A stretch of DNA of 64,000 nucleotides from Gammaproteobacteria bacterium. Lineage in GTDB: Bacteria; Pseudomonadota; Gammaproteobacteria; Steroidobacterales; Steroidobacteraceae. The notes under the pieces were generated by a model. It made no database searches, was not told the origin of the DNA, and saw nothing but the letters and a program-made list of their open reading frames with translations. Position numbers and translations under genes: made by a program. Of the stretch, positions 7,425 through 39,728 are shown piece by piece. Where the stretch lies: the NCBI GenBank assembly GCA_947455595.1, contig CANGOP010000012.1:1-64000 (forward strand), in the 5' to 3' direction. The stretch's first letter is position 1. Every line of letters starts with the position of its first letter.

Positions 7425-8930
7425 ATGCGTCATCGAATTTTCGCTCTTCTTGCCGCCCTGAGCAGCACAGTCATACTCGCCGCCTGCTCACGCGTTGCCC
7501 CCATCATCACGTCCGTGAACGATGCCGAAACGGCTCGTATGGGGGTCATGACCGGTACAACCGGTGAAACAATTGCCATGACGCGCTTCCCGAAAGCTGA
7601 TCTCAAGCACTTCGACGACATTGTGGACGCCATCGGAGCCCTGAAGGCCGGCCAACTGGATGCCGTCCTGACGGGGTACCCCGCAGCATTGCAGTCAACC
7701 AAGCGCAATCGCGACCTCACGCTTGTTCAAGAAAAACTCTCGACTGAAAACACCTCGATTGGCATACGCAAGGGCAACATTGAGCTGTTGACTCACGTCG
7801 ATCGCATTCTGAGCGAGCTGAAGGCAGACGGCACGCTCGCCGATATGTCACGGCGCTGGCTCAAGTCCGACCTGAGTCCGTACGAGGAAGTGGACATTCG
7901 ATTACCGAGCACCGGCACGCCTTTACGGGTGGGCGTGTCCGCCACGCGGGAACCCTTTAATTTCGTCGACGCAAACGGTCGAATTACCGGCCATGACGCT
8001 GAGCTCTCGCGCCGTATTGGCGAAAAATTGGGCCGTCCGGTGGAATTCCAGAACATGAAGTTCACCGCGCTCATCCCAGCGCTTCAAACTGGAAAGATAG
8101 ACATCATCATCACCGGAATGAGCGCGACGCCTGAGCGCGCCAAAAAGATAGACTTTACCCAGCGATATTACGAGTTACATCAGGTTCTACTCGTTCGATC
8201 AGCTCTGGCCATTGAATCGAGCGAAACCTCTTTTGGAAAAAAACTCGTCGAAAGCTTCGAGATCAACATCCTGAAGGAGCATCGGTATCTTCTGCTTTTT
8301 GAGGGCCTTAAAAACACGATCATCATCTCGATCTTCTCGGCCGTTTTCGGCACGCTTCTAGGCGCCTTAGTCTGCTTCCTTCGAATGTCGCGCACCGCAT
8401 TCCTTAGAACCCCTGCGAACGTCTTCATTGATGTACTCCGAGGAACACCCGTTCTCGTTCTGTTGATGCTGATTTTTTACGTCGTCTTCGCCTCCGTTGA
8501 CGTCAGCCCCGTAGCGGTTTCAGTAGTCGCTTTTGGTCTGAATTTTGCCGCCTATTCGGCCGAAATCTTCCGATCTGGAATTGAAGGCGTCGACAAGGGG
8601 CAGACAGAAGCGGGTATTTCGATGGGCTTCTCGCGAACACAGACCTTCTTGAACATCGTGCTTCCCCAAATGATCCAGAGAGTCCTCCCCGTCTATAAAG
8701 GTGAGTTCATCTCGCTCGTCAAAATGACGTCGGTTGTCGGATATATTGCGGTTCATGACTTGACGAAAGCCAGCGACATCATTCGCAGCCGCACATTCGA
8801 TGCATTTTTTCCGCTCGTCATGGTGGCCGTTCTCTACTTCATGGTGTCTTGGCTATTCATCCGACTGCTTAGTCTCATTGAACTCAAAACCGACCCCAAG
8901 CGCCGACGCCAAGGGAGGGTCTCGCCATGA
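7425..8930 (+). CDS. Polar amino-acid ABC transporter: permuted substrate-binding domain fused to permease
   Basis: A 501-residue fusion. Residues 1-21 form a lipoprotein-type signal (VILAAC, Cys21). Residues about 28-146 look like lobe 2 of a family 3 binding protein: a [12 protein letters not shown] segment, then [14 protein letters not shown], ending [16 protein letters not shown]. Residues 167-258 look like lobe 1: [15 protein letters not shown], then [20 protein letters not shown] and [14 protein letters not shown]. In ordinary members lobe 1 comes first, so the order here is swapped. Residues about 285-490 are a GlnP/HisM-type permease with the EAA loop ([12 protein letters not shown]). 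The stop overlaps the ATPase start by 4 bases. It likely imports a polar amino acid. A hand count of bases 8221-8280 gives 27/60 G+C, below neighbouring genes. Confidence 0.88.
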
Positions 8931-10036
8931 TCACTGTTGATAATTTAAATAAGCGCTTCGGCGATCTTCACGTCCTAAAAGACGTCAGCACGCAGATTAA
9001 TAAGGGGGATGTCGTCTCCATCATTGGACCTTCCGGTTGTGGAAAGAGCACGTTTCTTCGCTGCTTGAATCTTCTGGAACAACCGGACTCGGGGACCATC
9101 GTCGTCAATGGTCAGGACATCACGGCACCCGGGGTCCATATCGCGTCAATTCGACAAAAGATGAACATGGTTTTTCAATCGTTCAATCTTTTTTCGCATC
9201 TCACCGTGTTGGAGAACCTCACCGTCGGCCCCATCAAGCTGAAAGGATTCGCCCCCACCGTCGCCGAGGAGAAGGCCTGCGAGTTATTGCGCCTCGTCGG
9301 GCTTGGAGACAAAGGGCATCATTTCCCAGACGAACTCTCCGGCGGGCAGAAGCAGCGGGTTGCGATCGCGCGCTGCCTAGCCATGGAGCCAGAGGTGATC
9401 CTTTTCGACGAGCCCACCTCGGCGCTTGATCCAACGATGGTTCGGGAAGTGCTGTCGGTGATTCGACGGCTGGCAAAAGACGGCATGACGATGCTGATTG
9501 TCACGCATGAGATGGATTTCGCTCGCGACGTATCCAATCGGGTGTTCTATATGGACGCCGGTGGCATCCATGAAGATGGGACACCGGAGCAGATATTTCT
9601 CAACCCGCAGCGAGAAAAGACACGTGCGTTCATCAATCGCACCAGGAGCTTGTCTTTCACGATTGCTGACAGAAATTTCGACTTTTATGGCATGAACGCT
9701 GAAATCGAGGGGTTTTGCGAGAAACAAATCCTCTCGAAGCGTTTTCGGCAGAATCTTCTCCTGTTGGTGGAAGAGTTGGTGCTGGTTCACCAGCCCTTAC
9801 TCGCGTACGGACCCCTCACGCTGCGGATCGAGCATGCGGAGCGGTCAAATCAGCTCGGGGTCATTTGCGAGCAGGCAGGATTGGACAGGAATCCCCTAGT
9901 CGGCGGCCACTTACCGGATGAGTTCGGGGTGATGATTATCCGTAGCCTCGTGCAGTCGATTGATCACCGGCATGAAAGTGGCCATTCTAGGCTAACCTTG
10001 GTTGTCCGCTCTAAGGCGCCTCCAGAGAATGGGTAA
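8927..10036 (+). CDS. Amino-acid ABC transporter ATPase (GlnQ-like) with an extra C-terminal domain
   Basis: A 369-residue protein. Residues 1 to about 243 are a complete polar-amino-acid transporter ATPase: Walker [10 protein letters not shown] at 34-42, signature LSGGQKQR, Walker [14 protein letters not shown], and the switch histidine in IVTHEMDFA. Ordinary GlnQ proteins stop near residue 245. Here about 120 residues follow, including [17 protein letters not shown], then [19 protein letters not shown] and [10 protein letters not shown]. The spacing of these pieces resembles the RsbW-type HATPase fold, but the Asn of the N-box and the DxGxG box are not preserved. I infer a decayed HATPase-like regulatory tail. 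It overlaps the upstream permease and its stop touches the amidase ATG. Bases 8941-9000 hand-count to 25/60 G+C. Confidence 0.88.
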
Positions 10037-11532
10037 TGCACCGTCGTGAATTACTACTAGCCGGTCTGTTAAGTCCACTTATGGCGCATGGCAGTGAGGG
10101 TTCACCGACCCGTACTCAGGAGCCCTTTTCGTGGTCAGCCGAGAGGCTTGCACAAGCGCTCCGTAGCGGCGAACTGGGGGTCGTTGAGTACGCTCGGGCC
10201 GCGATTGACCGGGTGAAATCTGCGAAGGCATTAAATGCCTTCATCACTTTTGATCCCGAGCAGGTACTCGCGGACGCCCGCCAGTTAGAACGCCGTCGAT
10301 CTCACCGCAGGACGGGCGCACTCTTCGGCGTTCCCATTCCCATCAAGGACAGCGTCAATACGGCTCAGTACCCGACGAGCGGTGGCACGTCTGCCTTGCG
10401 GCACTTTCGCCCAAGGGGCGACGCTCCCATCGTTGCCCGCTTGCGAGCGGAGGGGGCAATCGTTTTGGGGAAAACCAATCTCCACGAACTGTCCTACGGG
10501 TGGACCAGCAACAATTTGGCTTTCGGTCCTGTACGCAATCCCTATGGTCTTGATCGGATCCCCGGCGGCAGTTCGGGCGGCACGGCCGCTGCCGTGGCAG
10601 CGCGACTGGCGCCTTTCGGAATCGCGGAGGACACCGAGGGAAGCATCCGGGTTCCGGCGGCCCTCTGTGGTGTCGCCGGTTTTCGGCCAACCACGGGACG
10701 CTATTCAACAGAAGGTGCGATTCCCATTTCGCCCCTATTCGATCAGATCGGTCCGGTAGCCCATCACGCGTCCGATCTCCTGCTGTTTGACCGCCTCATG
10801 AGCGACGATCCGACCGTCGTTGCGCAGCAAAGTTTGAAAGGTATCCGTCTTGGGGTCGTGCAGGACCCGTTCTGGCGTGACCTACATCCGCAAGTCGAGG
10901 CGGCAGCCCGTGCCGCCTTACGACGCCTACAGGACGCGGGTGCTGAATTGGTGGAGGCAGATTGGCCTGAACTGACCGACAGGGTCGGCACGATTTGCGA
11001 GCCGATCCAAAATCACGATGTTCGTATTGCGCTGACGGCGTTCTTGCGGCGTTATTCCGCGCCGACTGACTTTGACGGAGTGGTATCAGCAGCAAGCGCA
11101 GACATCCGGGCGGTGTTCGCGCATGACATTCTGCCGGGAAGCCCCGGGTTTGTAGATGCACACCGTTATCAGGAGATGGTCCACGTTCAATTGCCTGCAC
11201 TCCGTCAGGCCTATGCCGACTTTTTCGAGCGACTGCGCGTCTCGGCCATCGTTTTCCCGACCACGCGGACGACGGCCCCGCGTATCGGAGAAGAGGAACT
11301 CGTCGACATAGGCGGTCGCCAGATCGACTTCACCCGGGCAATTGCGGGAAATATCGCACCTGGAAGTACGGCGGGACTGCCAGGGCTCGTACTACCGATA
11401 GGCCTAGACACCGGCGGACTGCCGCTGTCGCTGGAGTTTGATGGCCCTGCTGGCTCTGACCGCGCCTTACTCAGCCTCGCCGTCTGCTTGGAGGAGACTC
11501 TGGGGCGACTTGCGCCGCCCCAGACCACCTAG
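10036..11532 (+). CDS. Amidase-signature family hydrolase, exported
   Basis: A 498-residue amidase-signature enzyme. It shows the Ser-cisSer-Lys triad segments: PIPIKDS for the lysine near residue 98, and GGSSGGTAAAVAA with IAEDTEGSIRVPAALCGVAGFRPT for the serines. The N-terminus ([19 protein letters not shown]) looks like a twin-arginine-style signal sequence, so it probably acts in the periplasm. Family members hydrolyse carboxamides, including amino-acid amides and acylamides; the substrate here is unknown. The ATG overlaps the last base of the ABC ATPase stop codon, so it is probably translated from the same message. That makes it plausible that it releases the amino acid the transporter imports. 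Confidence 0.83.
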   Translation: MHRRELLLAGLLSPLMAHGSEGSPTRTQEPFSWSAERLAQALRSGELGVVEYARAAIDRVKSAKALNAFITFDPEQVLADARQLERRRSHRRTGALFGVPIPIKDSVNTAQYPTSGGTSALRHFRPRGDAPIVARLRAEGAIVLGKTNLHELSYGWTSNNLAFGPVRNPYGLDRIPGGSSGGTAAAVAARLAPFGIAEDTEGSIRVPAALCGVAGFRPTTGRYSTEGAIPISPLFDQIGPVAHHASDLLLFDRLMSDDPTVVAQQSLKGIRLGVVQDPFWRDLHPQVEAAARAALRRLQDAGAELVEADWPELTDRVGTICEPIQNHDVRIALTAFLRRYSAPTDFDGVVSAASADIRAVFAHDILPGSPGFVDAHRYQEMVHVQLPALRQAYADFFERLRVSAIVFPTTRTTAPRIGEEELVDIGGRQIDFTRAIAGNIAPGSTAGLPGLVLPIGLDTGGLPLSLEFDGPAGSDRALLSLAVCLEETLGRLAPPQTT

Positions 11533-15080: not shown

Positions 15081-15851
15081 TTACTCAGCAACGAGCGCCG
15101 ACAGTCCGCCCTGATAGTACGGGGTCGAGAAGAGCACTTTCGTCGAACGCTCGGCCGTGATCGTGATGCACGCGCCGATCATGTCGACTTTTCCGGAAAT
15201 CAGTGCCGGAATCATGGCGCCAAAATCCATATTCACCACCTCAATGCGTCGACCCAATCGCTGGGCAACACGGCGGGCGATTTCAACATCGAGGCCCACG
15301 ACGGCCTGACTGCCGTCCACGAAGGAGAATGGTTCCGTCACAGCCGAGGTGCCGAATCGCAGCACCGGGCCATCAGTAGCGGGAATTTCAGGCATCGCGG
15401 CAGGCGCTCCGACATCTGGAAGCCAACGCTTGACCATCGCTGCGTAGTCACCGTTCGCCTTCATATCGGCGACCACGCCATCAATGGCGGCTTTCAACTC
15501 AGCATCACCCAAACGGACGGCAAATCCATAATCGTCCTTGGTGATTGGATCCGGAAGCACCCGGAGGCCGGGATTTTTAGCCGCGATGTTGCGAAGAATC
15601 GGCTCGTCGTAGGCGGCGACATCCGCCTTATGCGACTTCACCGCCAACGCCGCATCGAGAACGGTATTGAAGTAGCTGATTTTGGCCGTCGGGATTTTGC
15701 TCAACACGAGCTGGTCGGCAACTGTACCGGTGGGCACGGCAAACTCCTTGCCGTCTAGATCAGCGACCGAATTGATTTTCGCACGCTGCGTGCAACCGGC
15801 CACCAAGGTCAACCCTACCAGCAGAGAAATCAATAAACGATTACGAAACAT
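15081..15851 (-). CDS. Polar amino-acid binding lipoprotein with swapped lobe order
   Basis: A family 3 solute-binding lipoprotein of 256 residues from the ATG at 15851 (GGAG 6 bases upstream; ATGs at 15857 and 15863 are alternatives). The signal is MFRNRLLISLLVGLTLVAGC with Cys20 as the lipidated residue. The lobe order is unusual. Residues 28-145 match lobe 2 (VADLDGKEFAVPTGTVADQL, then DDYGFAVRLGDAELKAAIDG, ending MVKRWLPD). Residues 163-255 match lobe 1 (LRFGTSAVTEPFSFVDG, SGKVDMIGACITITAER), and the protein stops right after the hinge strand (STPYYQGGLSALV). All parts of a normal binding protein are present, so this is a permutation and not a truncation. It has no transporter genes beside it and may serve the fusion transporter at 7425. 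Confidence 0.85.
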   Translation of the reverse strand: MFRNRLLISLLVGLTLVAGCTQRAKINSVADLDGKEFAVPTGTVADQLVLSKIPTAKISYFNTVLDAALAVKSHKADVAAYDEPILRNIAAKNPGLRVLPDPITKDDYGFAVRLGDAELKAAIDGVVADMKANGDYAAMVKRWLPDVGAPAAMPEIPATDGPVLRFGTSAVTEPFSFVDGSQAVVGLDVEIARRVAQRLGRRIEVVNMDFGAMIPALISGKVDMIGACITITAERSTKVLFSTPYYQGGLSALVAE

Positions 15852-38372: not shown

Positions 38373-38468
38373 GGCGCCCCCTTCGTACCCCAGTAGAGCA
38401 TACGCCTGCGGAGCATGGCTGTCGTGACCCGAGTCTTGGTAGTCTCGGCGGACTTCAAGGATCACCGC

Positions 38469-39728
38469 ATGCGACGCCAATCCAGATTCGGCCTGTGTTT
38501 TATCACTCTGGTGCTGTGGATCAGTCCGGTCTGCGCTGCGGAGCCCGAATTGCGAGATGGGAATTCGTTAGTTCGGGAGATCTTTTCCTTATTAGATGCA
38601 CGCCTCGCACTCATGCCAGACGTGGCGGCTGCGAAGTGGCTTGCAGGGCAACCCGTCTCCGATCCGGTGCGCGAGGCCGCCGTCATCAAAGCCGCTGGCG
38701 AGGCTGCTGCGCACCGCGGACTGGCAGATGCGCCCGTTGAAGCGTTGTTTAAACAGCAAATTGCCCTTGCACGCGAATCTCAAGCCAATTGGATGGAACG
38801 ATGGCGGGTAGAGGGCTCGGCCCCCACCGCTGCGCGTTCGTTGCGGGATGACCTACGCCCAGCGATCGATCGACTGACCCAAGCCTTACTGCGCTCGCTC
38901 GCACTGGCAGCACCGTACGTCACGACGAGCGATCTGAAAGAACTGTCTGGATCGCTTCCGACAGAGCGGTGGAGCGCCCGTGATCGCGAGGTCGCGGCAG
39001 AGATCATCCGCTCTATATACCTAGATGCGCCGCGTACTCCGAGCCGGGCGAGTGCCTCCGGCGTCCTGCGAATCGGCGTTCCAGGGGACTACGCGCCGTT
39101 TGCAACGAGCAGTCGCGGGCGGTTAGCGGGTGCGGACGTTGAGCTAACTCAACAGATAGCCAGAACATTGGGCCTTGAACCCGTCTACATCCGTAGTTCG
39201 TGGGCCAAGCTGTTGGATGATCTCGATGCCGACCGATTCGACCTCGCTGCAGGGGGGATTTCCGTGACCGCAGCTCGGCGGGCTCGGGCGTCGTTTTCAA
39301 GACCTTTGGTGCAGGGTGGTAAAACCGCGATTGGACGGTGCGCCGATCGTGATCGATTCAGCTCAATCGATCGTATCGATCAACCCGATGTCCGAGTCAT
39401 AGAGAATCCCGGAGGAACCAACGAACTCTTCGCACGTCGGATCCTGTCGCGCGCCCAACTGACCATCCATCCCGAGAATCTCACGATTTTTCGCGAGCTG
39501 GTCGAAGGTCGGGCCGATGTCATGTATACCGACGATCTTGAGATCGCACATGTCGCACGCGTCGAACCCAGTCTCTGTCGACTCCTTGACACCGTATTCG
39601 ATCCGGCCGACAAAGCGCTGCTGCTGCCCATGGGGGACGACTGGGCACGATTCATCGGCCCGGCGCTCGACGCCGAATTGGACTCCGGAGCGTACCAACG
39701 CGCTCTTGATCAGGCGATCACCCATTAG
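38469..39728 (+). CDS. Periplasmic chorismate mutase-cyclohexadienyl dehydratase fusion
   Basis: A 419-residue exported bifunctional protein from the ATG at 38469; the track's earlier start (38415) adds 18 residues before the signal peptide. The leader is MRRQSRFGLCFITLVLWISPVCA. Residues about 31-185 are an AroQ-gamma chorismate mutase (LLDARLALMPDVAAAKWLAG, DPVREAAVIKAAGEAA, FKQQIALARESQANWMERW). Residues 199-419 are a PheC cyclohexadienyl dehydratase of the binding-protein fold (LRIGVPGDYAPF, FDLAAGGISVTAARR, VIENPGGTNELFARRI, IHPENLTIFRELVEGRADVMYTDDLE). Together they turn chorismate into prephenate and then phenylpyruvate in the periplasm, bypassing cytoplasmic feedback control. It is divergent from an amino-acid permease. 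Confidence 0.9.
   Translation: MRRQSRFGLCFITLVLWISPVCAAEPELRDGNSLVREIFSLLDARLALMPDVAAAKWLAGQPVSDPVREAAVIKAAGEAAAHRGLADAPVEALFKQQIALARESQANWMERWRVEGSAPTAARSLRDDLRPAIDRLTQALLRSLALAAPYVTTSDLKELSGSLPTERWSARDREVAAEIIRSIYLDAPRTPSRASASGVLRIGVPGDYAPFATSSRGRLAGADVELTQQIARTLGLEPVYIRSSWAKLLDDLDADRFDLAAGGISVTAARRARASFSRPLVQGGKTAIGRCADRDRFSSIDRIDQPDVRVIENPGGTNELFARRILSRAQLTIHPENLTIFRELVEGRADVMYTDDLEIAHVARVEPSLCRLLDTVFDPADKALLLPMGDDWARFIGPALDAELDSGAYQRALDQAITH

Follow-up and report, generated by a model that had tools for sequence, protein, structure and literature searches.

The window analysed here, a stretch of 64,000 nucleotides from a gammaproteobacterium of the Steroidobacteraceae, contains a gene for a free lipoprotein whose two lobes come in an order opposite to the usual one, as well as a transporter fused to a binding domain of the same build. 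This raises the questions of whether the swapped order is a real, inherited architecture, how it might have arisen, and what a free protein of this kind does in a genome in which the transporter carries a receptor of its own.

Half-domain order of the free lipoprotein

The gene at 15081-15851, whose product is MFRNRLLISLLVGLTLVAGC-TQRAKINSVADLDGKEFAV..., encodes an SBP_bac_3 type II binding protein (SBP) with its halves in reverse order. The Pfam profile SBP_bac_3 (PF00497) matches the protein with an E value of 6.6e-32 and 110.5 bits (cut-off 26.4 bits), but in two stretches of swapped order: residues 164-254 correspond to profile positions 1-90, and an earlier segment identified in a six-frame search (15417-15647) corresponds to positions 97-131. 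The same exchange was found with NCBIfam models, residues 21-144 matching positions 118-243 of the GlnH model and residues 163-254 matching positions 25-116 of TIGR01096, and with the amino-acid-binding protein of PDB entry 6svf, in which residues 29-144 fall on chain positions 113-227 and residues 164-252 on positions 12-100. Both lobes are thus homologous to the SBP_bac_3 family (type II, cluster F), but the conventional succession of N-terminal half and C-terminal half is replaced by the swapped order in every homologue of the same subfamily (P1-type). The lobe order given by the sequence-only reading, that of a stand-alone lipoprotein with lobe 2 ahead of lobe 1, is therefore correct.

The boundaries within the protein required one revision (Table 1). 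In a normal SBP, the first block would be the C-terminal half and the second block the N-terminal half. A conventional type II SBP runs from the lobe 1 core across the hinge into lobe 2, and back across the hinge to the helices of lobe 1. Since the first block closes with helices (residues from about 105 to 146) that in a conventional protein lead back to lobe 1, the block that had been read as lobe 2 up to residue 145 is not purely lobe 2, and we place the cut at the first hinge crossing. It follows that lobe 1 is continuous, that a linker of about 15 residues, which has neither helix nor strand in the AlphaFold2 model, joins the old chain ends, and that both new ends lie at the hinge. The second block stops at residue 254 of 256 and nearly all homologues do likewise, in agreement with the earlier description of a chain that ends right after the hinge strand.

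Table 1. Features of the free lipoprotein gene and of the fused transporters of the same genome. Positions are those of the window unless a locus is named.
Feature	Position	Strand	Basis
Stand-alone permuted SBP_bac_3 lipoprotein gene, 256 aa	15081-15851	-	ORF with ATG at 15851
Signal peptide (residues 1-19) and lipidated Cys20, lipobox LVAG-C20	15792-15851	-	read from sequence
First block (residues 25-146): lobe 2, second hinge crossing, lobe-1 C-terminal helices	15414-15779	-	half-domain HMM, 211 bits
New linker (residues 147-161), former C-terminus to former N-terminus	15369-15413	-	gap between half-domain matches
Second block (residues 162-254): lobe 1 core up to first hinge strand	15090-15368	-	half-domain HMM, 174 bits; PF00497 positions 1-90
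Asp82 codon	15606-15608	-	28/28 in P1 subfamily
Arg235 codon	15147-15149	-	no exception among permuted or conventional rows
Permuted SBP domain fused to ABC permease (P0002), likely partner	7425-8930	+	
ABC ATPase of the fused transporter	8927-10036	+	
HATPase_c_2/RsbW-like C-terminal domain of the ATPase	9662-10033	+	hhalign 98.6%
757-aa fusion of two tandem permuted SBP domains and permease, genome contig C6	L010 4179-6452	-	
Own ATPase after the tandem fusion, C-terminal extension similar to that of the 8927-10036 ATPase	L010 3091-4182		

A gene-model error or a frameshift that hides a normal lobe 1 could mimic such a permutation, but we found nothing in favor of this explanation and reject it with near certainty. 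The intact lipobox directly precedes lobe 2, dozens of homologues have identical boundaries, and a six-frame PF00497 scan of the genome revealed no lobe-1 piece upstream of the gene in any frame and no further one near it. Moreover, the whole length of the protein can be aligned colinearly with the fused binding domain encoded at 7425-8930, with 33% identity and 58% similarity over about 250 aa (E value 1e-46), which provides the similarity between the two domains that a shared architecture demands.

The predicted structure agrees with this assignment. With 70 homologues, AlphaFold2 returned a confident monomer (pLDDT 95.5, pTM 0.90) in which the expected elements are present, and in a Foldseek search one lobe matched 4zv1 over 84 columns at 0.9 Å; on this prediction, the protein may have a two-lobed fold with an interlobe cleft. 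The same search against the PDB gave no full-length sequential match with a TM score above about 0.5 (rmsd 6-21), and the tandem protein 6h30 matched at 19 Å, its sequence alignment spanning two different domains. Poor sequential fold matches beside a good match of a single lobe are the pattern that a permutation predicts. Among the best PDB sequence matches there was no solved permuted family 3 structure, and only 6h30 aligned across the junction. Because standard domain searches show permuted SBPs as two fragments, a rearrangement of this kind is easily missed.

An Rfam search near the gene detected no riboswitch or other RNA, and a promoter search at the gene found none above chance. The adjoining oxidoreductase gene is not a recurrent neighbor in related loci.

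Distribution and origin of the permuted family

A scan of GTDB species genomes yielded 61 loci. Close homologues of the free lipoprotein (P1-type) are 49-82% identical to it and share its half order, lipobox start and hinge-strand end: a lipobox regular expression matches directly before lobe 2 in 37 of 47 members, most of the other ten also having a Cys there, and 40 of the 47 have zero extra residues past the same profile position at the C-terminus. They occur in MAGs labelled Pseudomonadota, Gemmatimonadota, Ignavibacteriota, Bacteroidota, Chlorobiota, Verrucomicrobiota and Bacillota, and also in strain-titled genomes such as Trichlorobacter thiogenes ATCC BAA-34 and Methylophilales LSUCC0135. 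Evenly drawn samples show the gene to be rare, with 3 of 274 genomes of the class and 1 of 118 of the phylum of Trichlorobacter carrying it. This rarity, taken with the scatter across phyla at high identity, suggests horizontal transfer, although contamination of MAGs may explain some cases.

Permuted domains also occur in other arrangements. When half-domain profiles were applied to all fetched loci, the order 2-1 was found in 112 ORFs, 2-1-2-1 in 15 and 2-1-2-1-2-1 in 14 (141 permuted), and the conventional order 1-2 in 47; these totals are ORF counts rather than independent genes because some ORFs recur in overlapping loci. Among the sampled proteins, a clean division results between those of order 1-2 and those of order (2-1)n, and the one 2-1-2 ORF may be cut off by the end of its locus. 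Three permuted systems are present in the genome of the window itself, namely the free protein, the single fusion at 7425 and the tandem fusion on contig C6, and fusions with three tandem permuted domains before the permease exist in other genomes. Most permuted SBPs of the Spirochaetota and Clostridia loci are part of an ordinary three-gene operon of SBP, permease and ATPase.

The relationships among these domains were examined in two trees. The first, with every domain recast in the usual order, comprised 80 permuted and 39 conventional rows, and the two kinds split at one branch with an SH-aLRT of 83. In the second, a careful tree from which long rows were left out, support was 89/76 (bootstrap 89) for the same split and 99/96 for the permuted domains once those of the Treponema type are set aside. 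Three clades were resolved in the second tree, the P1-type free proteins (100/100), the d1-type fused domains including P0002 (100/99) and the d2/d3 domains including both domains of the C6 fusion (100/100), and each of them crosses phyla. Since a single branch sets every permuted domain apart from the conventional ones in both trees, a single origin is favored, though not proven. The 141 permuted ORFs and their position in the trees bear out the proposal that the permutation is a real and inherited architecture. A second kind of stand-alone permuted SBP, of about 255-280 aa, was observed directly downstream of the ATPase gene at five loci (L027, L036, L038, L040, L056); four members in the large tree sit in a clade other than that of the window protein.

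The trees also bear on the proposal that the free protein is an ancestor or derivative of the fused binding domain, which finds no support in a recent sense. Such a protein, released from the fused domain or left as a fragment of it with little function of its own, would share its permutation and its neighborhood and would resemble it in sequence, as the free protein does (33% identity). However, the tree contradicts this scenario, in that the P1 and d1 types form separate, well-supported sister subfamilies that both cross phyla, and the P1 type is far better conserved across phyla (49-82% identity) than a degenerate copy would be. We therefore regard the free protein as an old paralogue, neither protein being a recent derivative of the other, and consider recent release highly improbable.

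As to the route of the permutation, the tandem protein 6h30 aligns with the window protein from the C-terminal half of its first domain to the N-terminal half of its second. This junction-spanning match points to tandem duplication, after which the outer halves were lost, as the likely origin of the permuted order. Tandem fusions may also adopt an alternative pairing, with an inner domain of conventional order and the outer halves paired with each other; this would be limited to the tandem forms because a single-domain form has only its own two halves to fold from.

Ligand site and the fused transporter

Two residues speak to the ligand. Arg235, at the position of the alpha-carboxylate-binding Arg of family 3 SBPs as in the GlnH and HisJ structures, is invariant in the P1 type (28/28) and in every row examined, permuted or conventional. 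Asp82, at the position of the residue that binds the alpha-amino group in the same structures, is found in 28 of 28 P1-type and 4 of 4 Treponema-type domains but is absent from all 13 of the fused d1-type domains. The free lipoprotein thus possesses both the Arg and the Asp that characterize cluster F, and since the Asp is lost in the d1 type, the free protein keeps a full amino-acid site whereas the fused first domain does not. Nevertheless, position 172, which is occupied by a ligand-stacking aromatic residue (Tyr or Phe) in conventional proteins, is Thr in 28 of 28 P1-type sequences, and T172/E173 are invariant in this type. The replacement of the aromatic residue suggests that the pocket is unusual, so that the P1-type ligand is probably an unusual one and perhaps not a standard amino acid.

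The altered pocket could instead reflect an SBP-derived enzyme similar to cyclohexadienyl dehydratase (CDT), or an orphan binding protein without a partner in the fused transporter. The close matches of the protein do include ancestral CDT reconstructions, and both the loss of the ligand-side aromatic and the invariance of T172/E173 would suit such a role. We nonetheless judge it improbable, given that both amino-acid-anchoring residues are invariant and that the gene is strongly linked to the fused importer. Elsewhere in the window, a plus-strand gene (38415-39728) encodes a chorismate mutase (CM_2) fused to an SBP_bac_3 domain of conventional order, which resembles the rare exported CM-CDT fusion enzymes (PMC10520331). 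These fusions have been reported from only nine species, Steroidobacter among them (PMC10520331).

The linkage is seen in both gene order and co-occurrence. A permuted SBP-permease fusion lies within 8 kb of the free gene in 25 of 47 P1-type loci, and 18 of these 25 fusions are less than 200 bp from it, mostly as direct neighbors on the same strand. Of 20 further genomes examined, in which the free gene has no close fusion, 17 have one elsewhere. Among 60 relatives, the fusion is present in all 8 genomes with the free gene and in 2 of 52 without it (Fisher 1.8e-8, a value that ignores relatedness). At two Bacteroidota loci, the P1-type domain is itself the first of three in one protein of 992-1027 aa. 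Arguing against a partnership, the free gene in the window stands by itself on the opposite strand, with about 5 kb between it and the end of the ATPase gene.

The adjacency and co-occurrence indicate that the free protein works with the fused transporter as an accessory receptor. Accordingly, the earlier suggestion that it feeds this transporter is supported as regards the partnership, while delivery itself is a step that we infer. The reading we prefer, and consider probable overall, is that of a lipid-anchored permuted SBP, most likely binding an alpha-amino acid, that acts as a free accessory receptor of an ABC importer with one to three fused permuted domains. An alpha-amino acid would be bound in the interlobe cleft, the lipoprotein would close on it in the manner of a venus flytrap, and the ligand would be delivered either to P0002 and its ATPase (7425-10036) or to the tandem paralogue on contig C6. 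The importer's own receptors, one to three in tandem on the permease, have the same permutation. Because the chain starts and ends at the hinge, the lipid anchor, or the permease in the fusions, is tethered at the hinge and not at lobe 1.

An amidase-family gene with an RR signal-like N-terminus (10036-11532, plus strand) overlaps the end of the ATPase gene. It may supply a substrate of the transporter; it is not a recurrent neighbor in related loci.

The RsbW-like domain and comparison with known systems

The C-terminal domain of the ATPase was assigned to Pfam HATPase_c_2 in 11 of 20 homologues. It apparently lacks the usual N-box Asn and may be a pseudokinase. This RsbW-like domain is kept with the fused permuted transporter across phyla and is absent from the ATPases of 240-250 aa in the Spirochaetota and Clostridia operons. 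Genes for STAS (9 loci), HATPase_c_2 (8) and SpoIIE (3) proteins occur near related loci. In Chlorobiaceae (L045, L051, L061, L062, L063), STAS and HATPase_c_2 genes stand in a row, and at L024, L029 and L036, STAS and SpoIIE genes directly precede the free permuted SBP gene; both arrangements place a partner-switching module next to the transporter.

The lipoprotein might serve signaling and not transport, as a receptor that reports an extracellular amino acid, via the fused transporter and its RsbW-like ATPase, to a partner-switching system. The HATPase_c_2-like C-terminus (hhalign 98.6%, Pfam in 11/20 homologues), the regulatory genes near related loci and the loss of the amino-binding Asp from the fused d1 domain are all consistent with this role. 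We consider it distinctly unlikely, however, since no STAS, HATPase_c_2 or SpoIIE genes stand beside the fused transporter within the window, the ATPase domain lacks the usual N-box Asn, the transporter genes are alone at most loci, and the Treponema-type members belong to plain transporter operons without an RsbW-like domain. A literature search on partner switching and ABC transporters returned nothing relevant. In a wider and likewise unlikely form of this proposal, a permuted type II family of single origin, partly housed in multi-receptor importers with an RsbW-like pseudokinase ATPase, would couple the sensing of extracellular amino acids to STAS/SpoIIE partner switching. If so, the hinge-tethered permutation would pass the closure of the receptor straight to the membrane domain.

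Returning to the accessory-receptor reading, the window protein resembles family 3 SBPs such as GlnH, HisJ and ArtJ of E. coli (PF00497; type II, cluster F) in that both halves are homologous, the protein is exported and the Arg and Asp anchors are common to them. It differs from these proteins in its reversed half-domains, in having both chain ends at the hinge and in the Thr that replaces the stacking aromatic. The natural precedent for its architecture is TpMglB-2 (Tp0684) of Treponema pallidum, a circularly permuted, lipid-tethered ABC binding protein for which the designation 'Type Ic / Cluster Bc' was proposed and which was shown to bind glucose and to change conformation (PMC4990184). 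The window protein is likewise circularly permuted and lipid-tethered, but TpMglB-2 has the type I (cluster B) sugar-binding fold, a different cut site and no permease fusion, and belongs to a different family; the family and PDB matches of the window protein are those of family 3 amino-acid SBPs rather than of the type I fold. Our literature search on circular permutation in SBPs returned TpMglB-2 as the sole natural case and no paper on a permuted type II family. The permuted family 3 proteins would thus be the type II counterpart of the type I permutation of TpMglB-2, a counterpart that is conserved across phyla and exists in free, singly fused and tandem forms. Such a family makes it possible to test by what route binding proteins become permuted (tandem duplication and trimming) and what effect tethering at the hinge has on delivery or signaling.

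Finally, the fused relatives are similar to importers of the GlnPQ type (SBD1-SBD2-permease; 6h30), in which tandem amino-acid SBDs are likewise fused to the permease. The stretch from the C-terminal half of GlnPQ SBD1 to the N-terminal half of SBD2 has the permuted order; the GlnPQ domains themselves are conventional, whereas every unit in the family described here is 2-1. Covalent fusion of an SBD to the permease is found in the paralogue P0002 but not in the free protein, which ends at the hinge strand.
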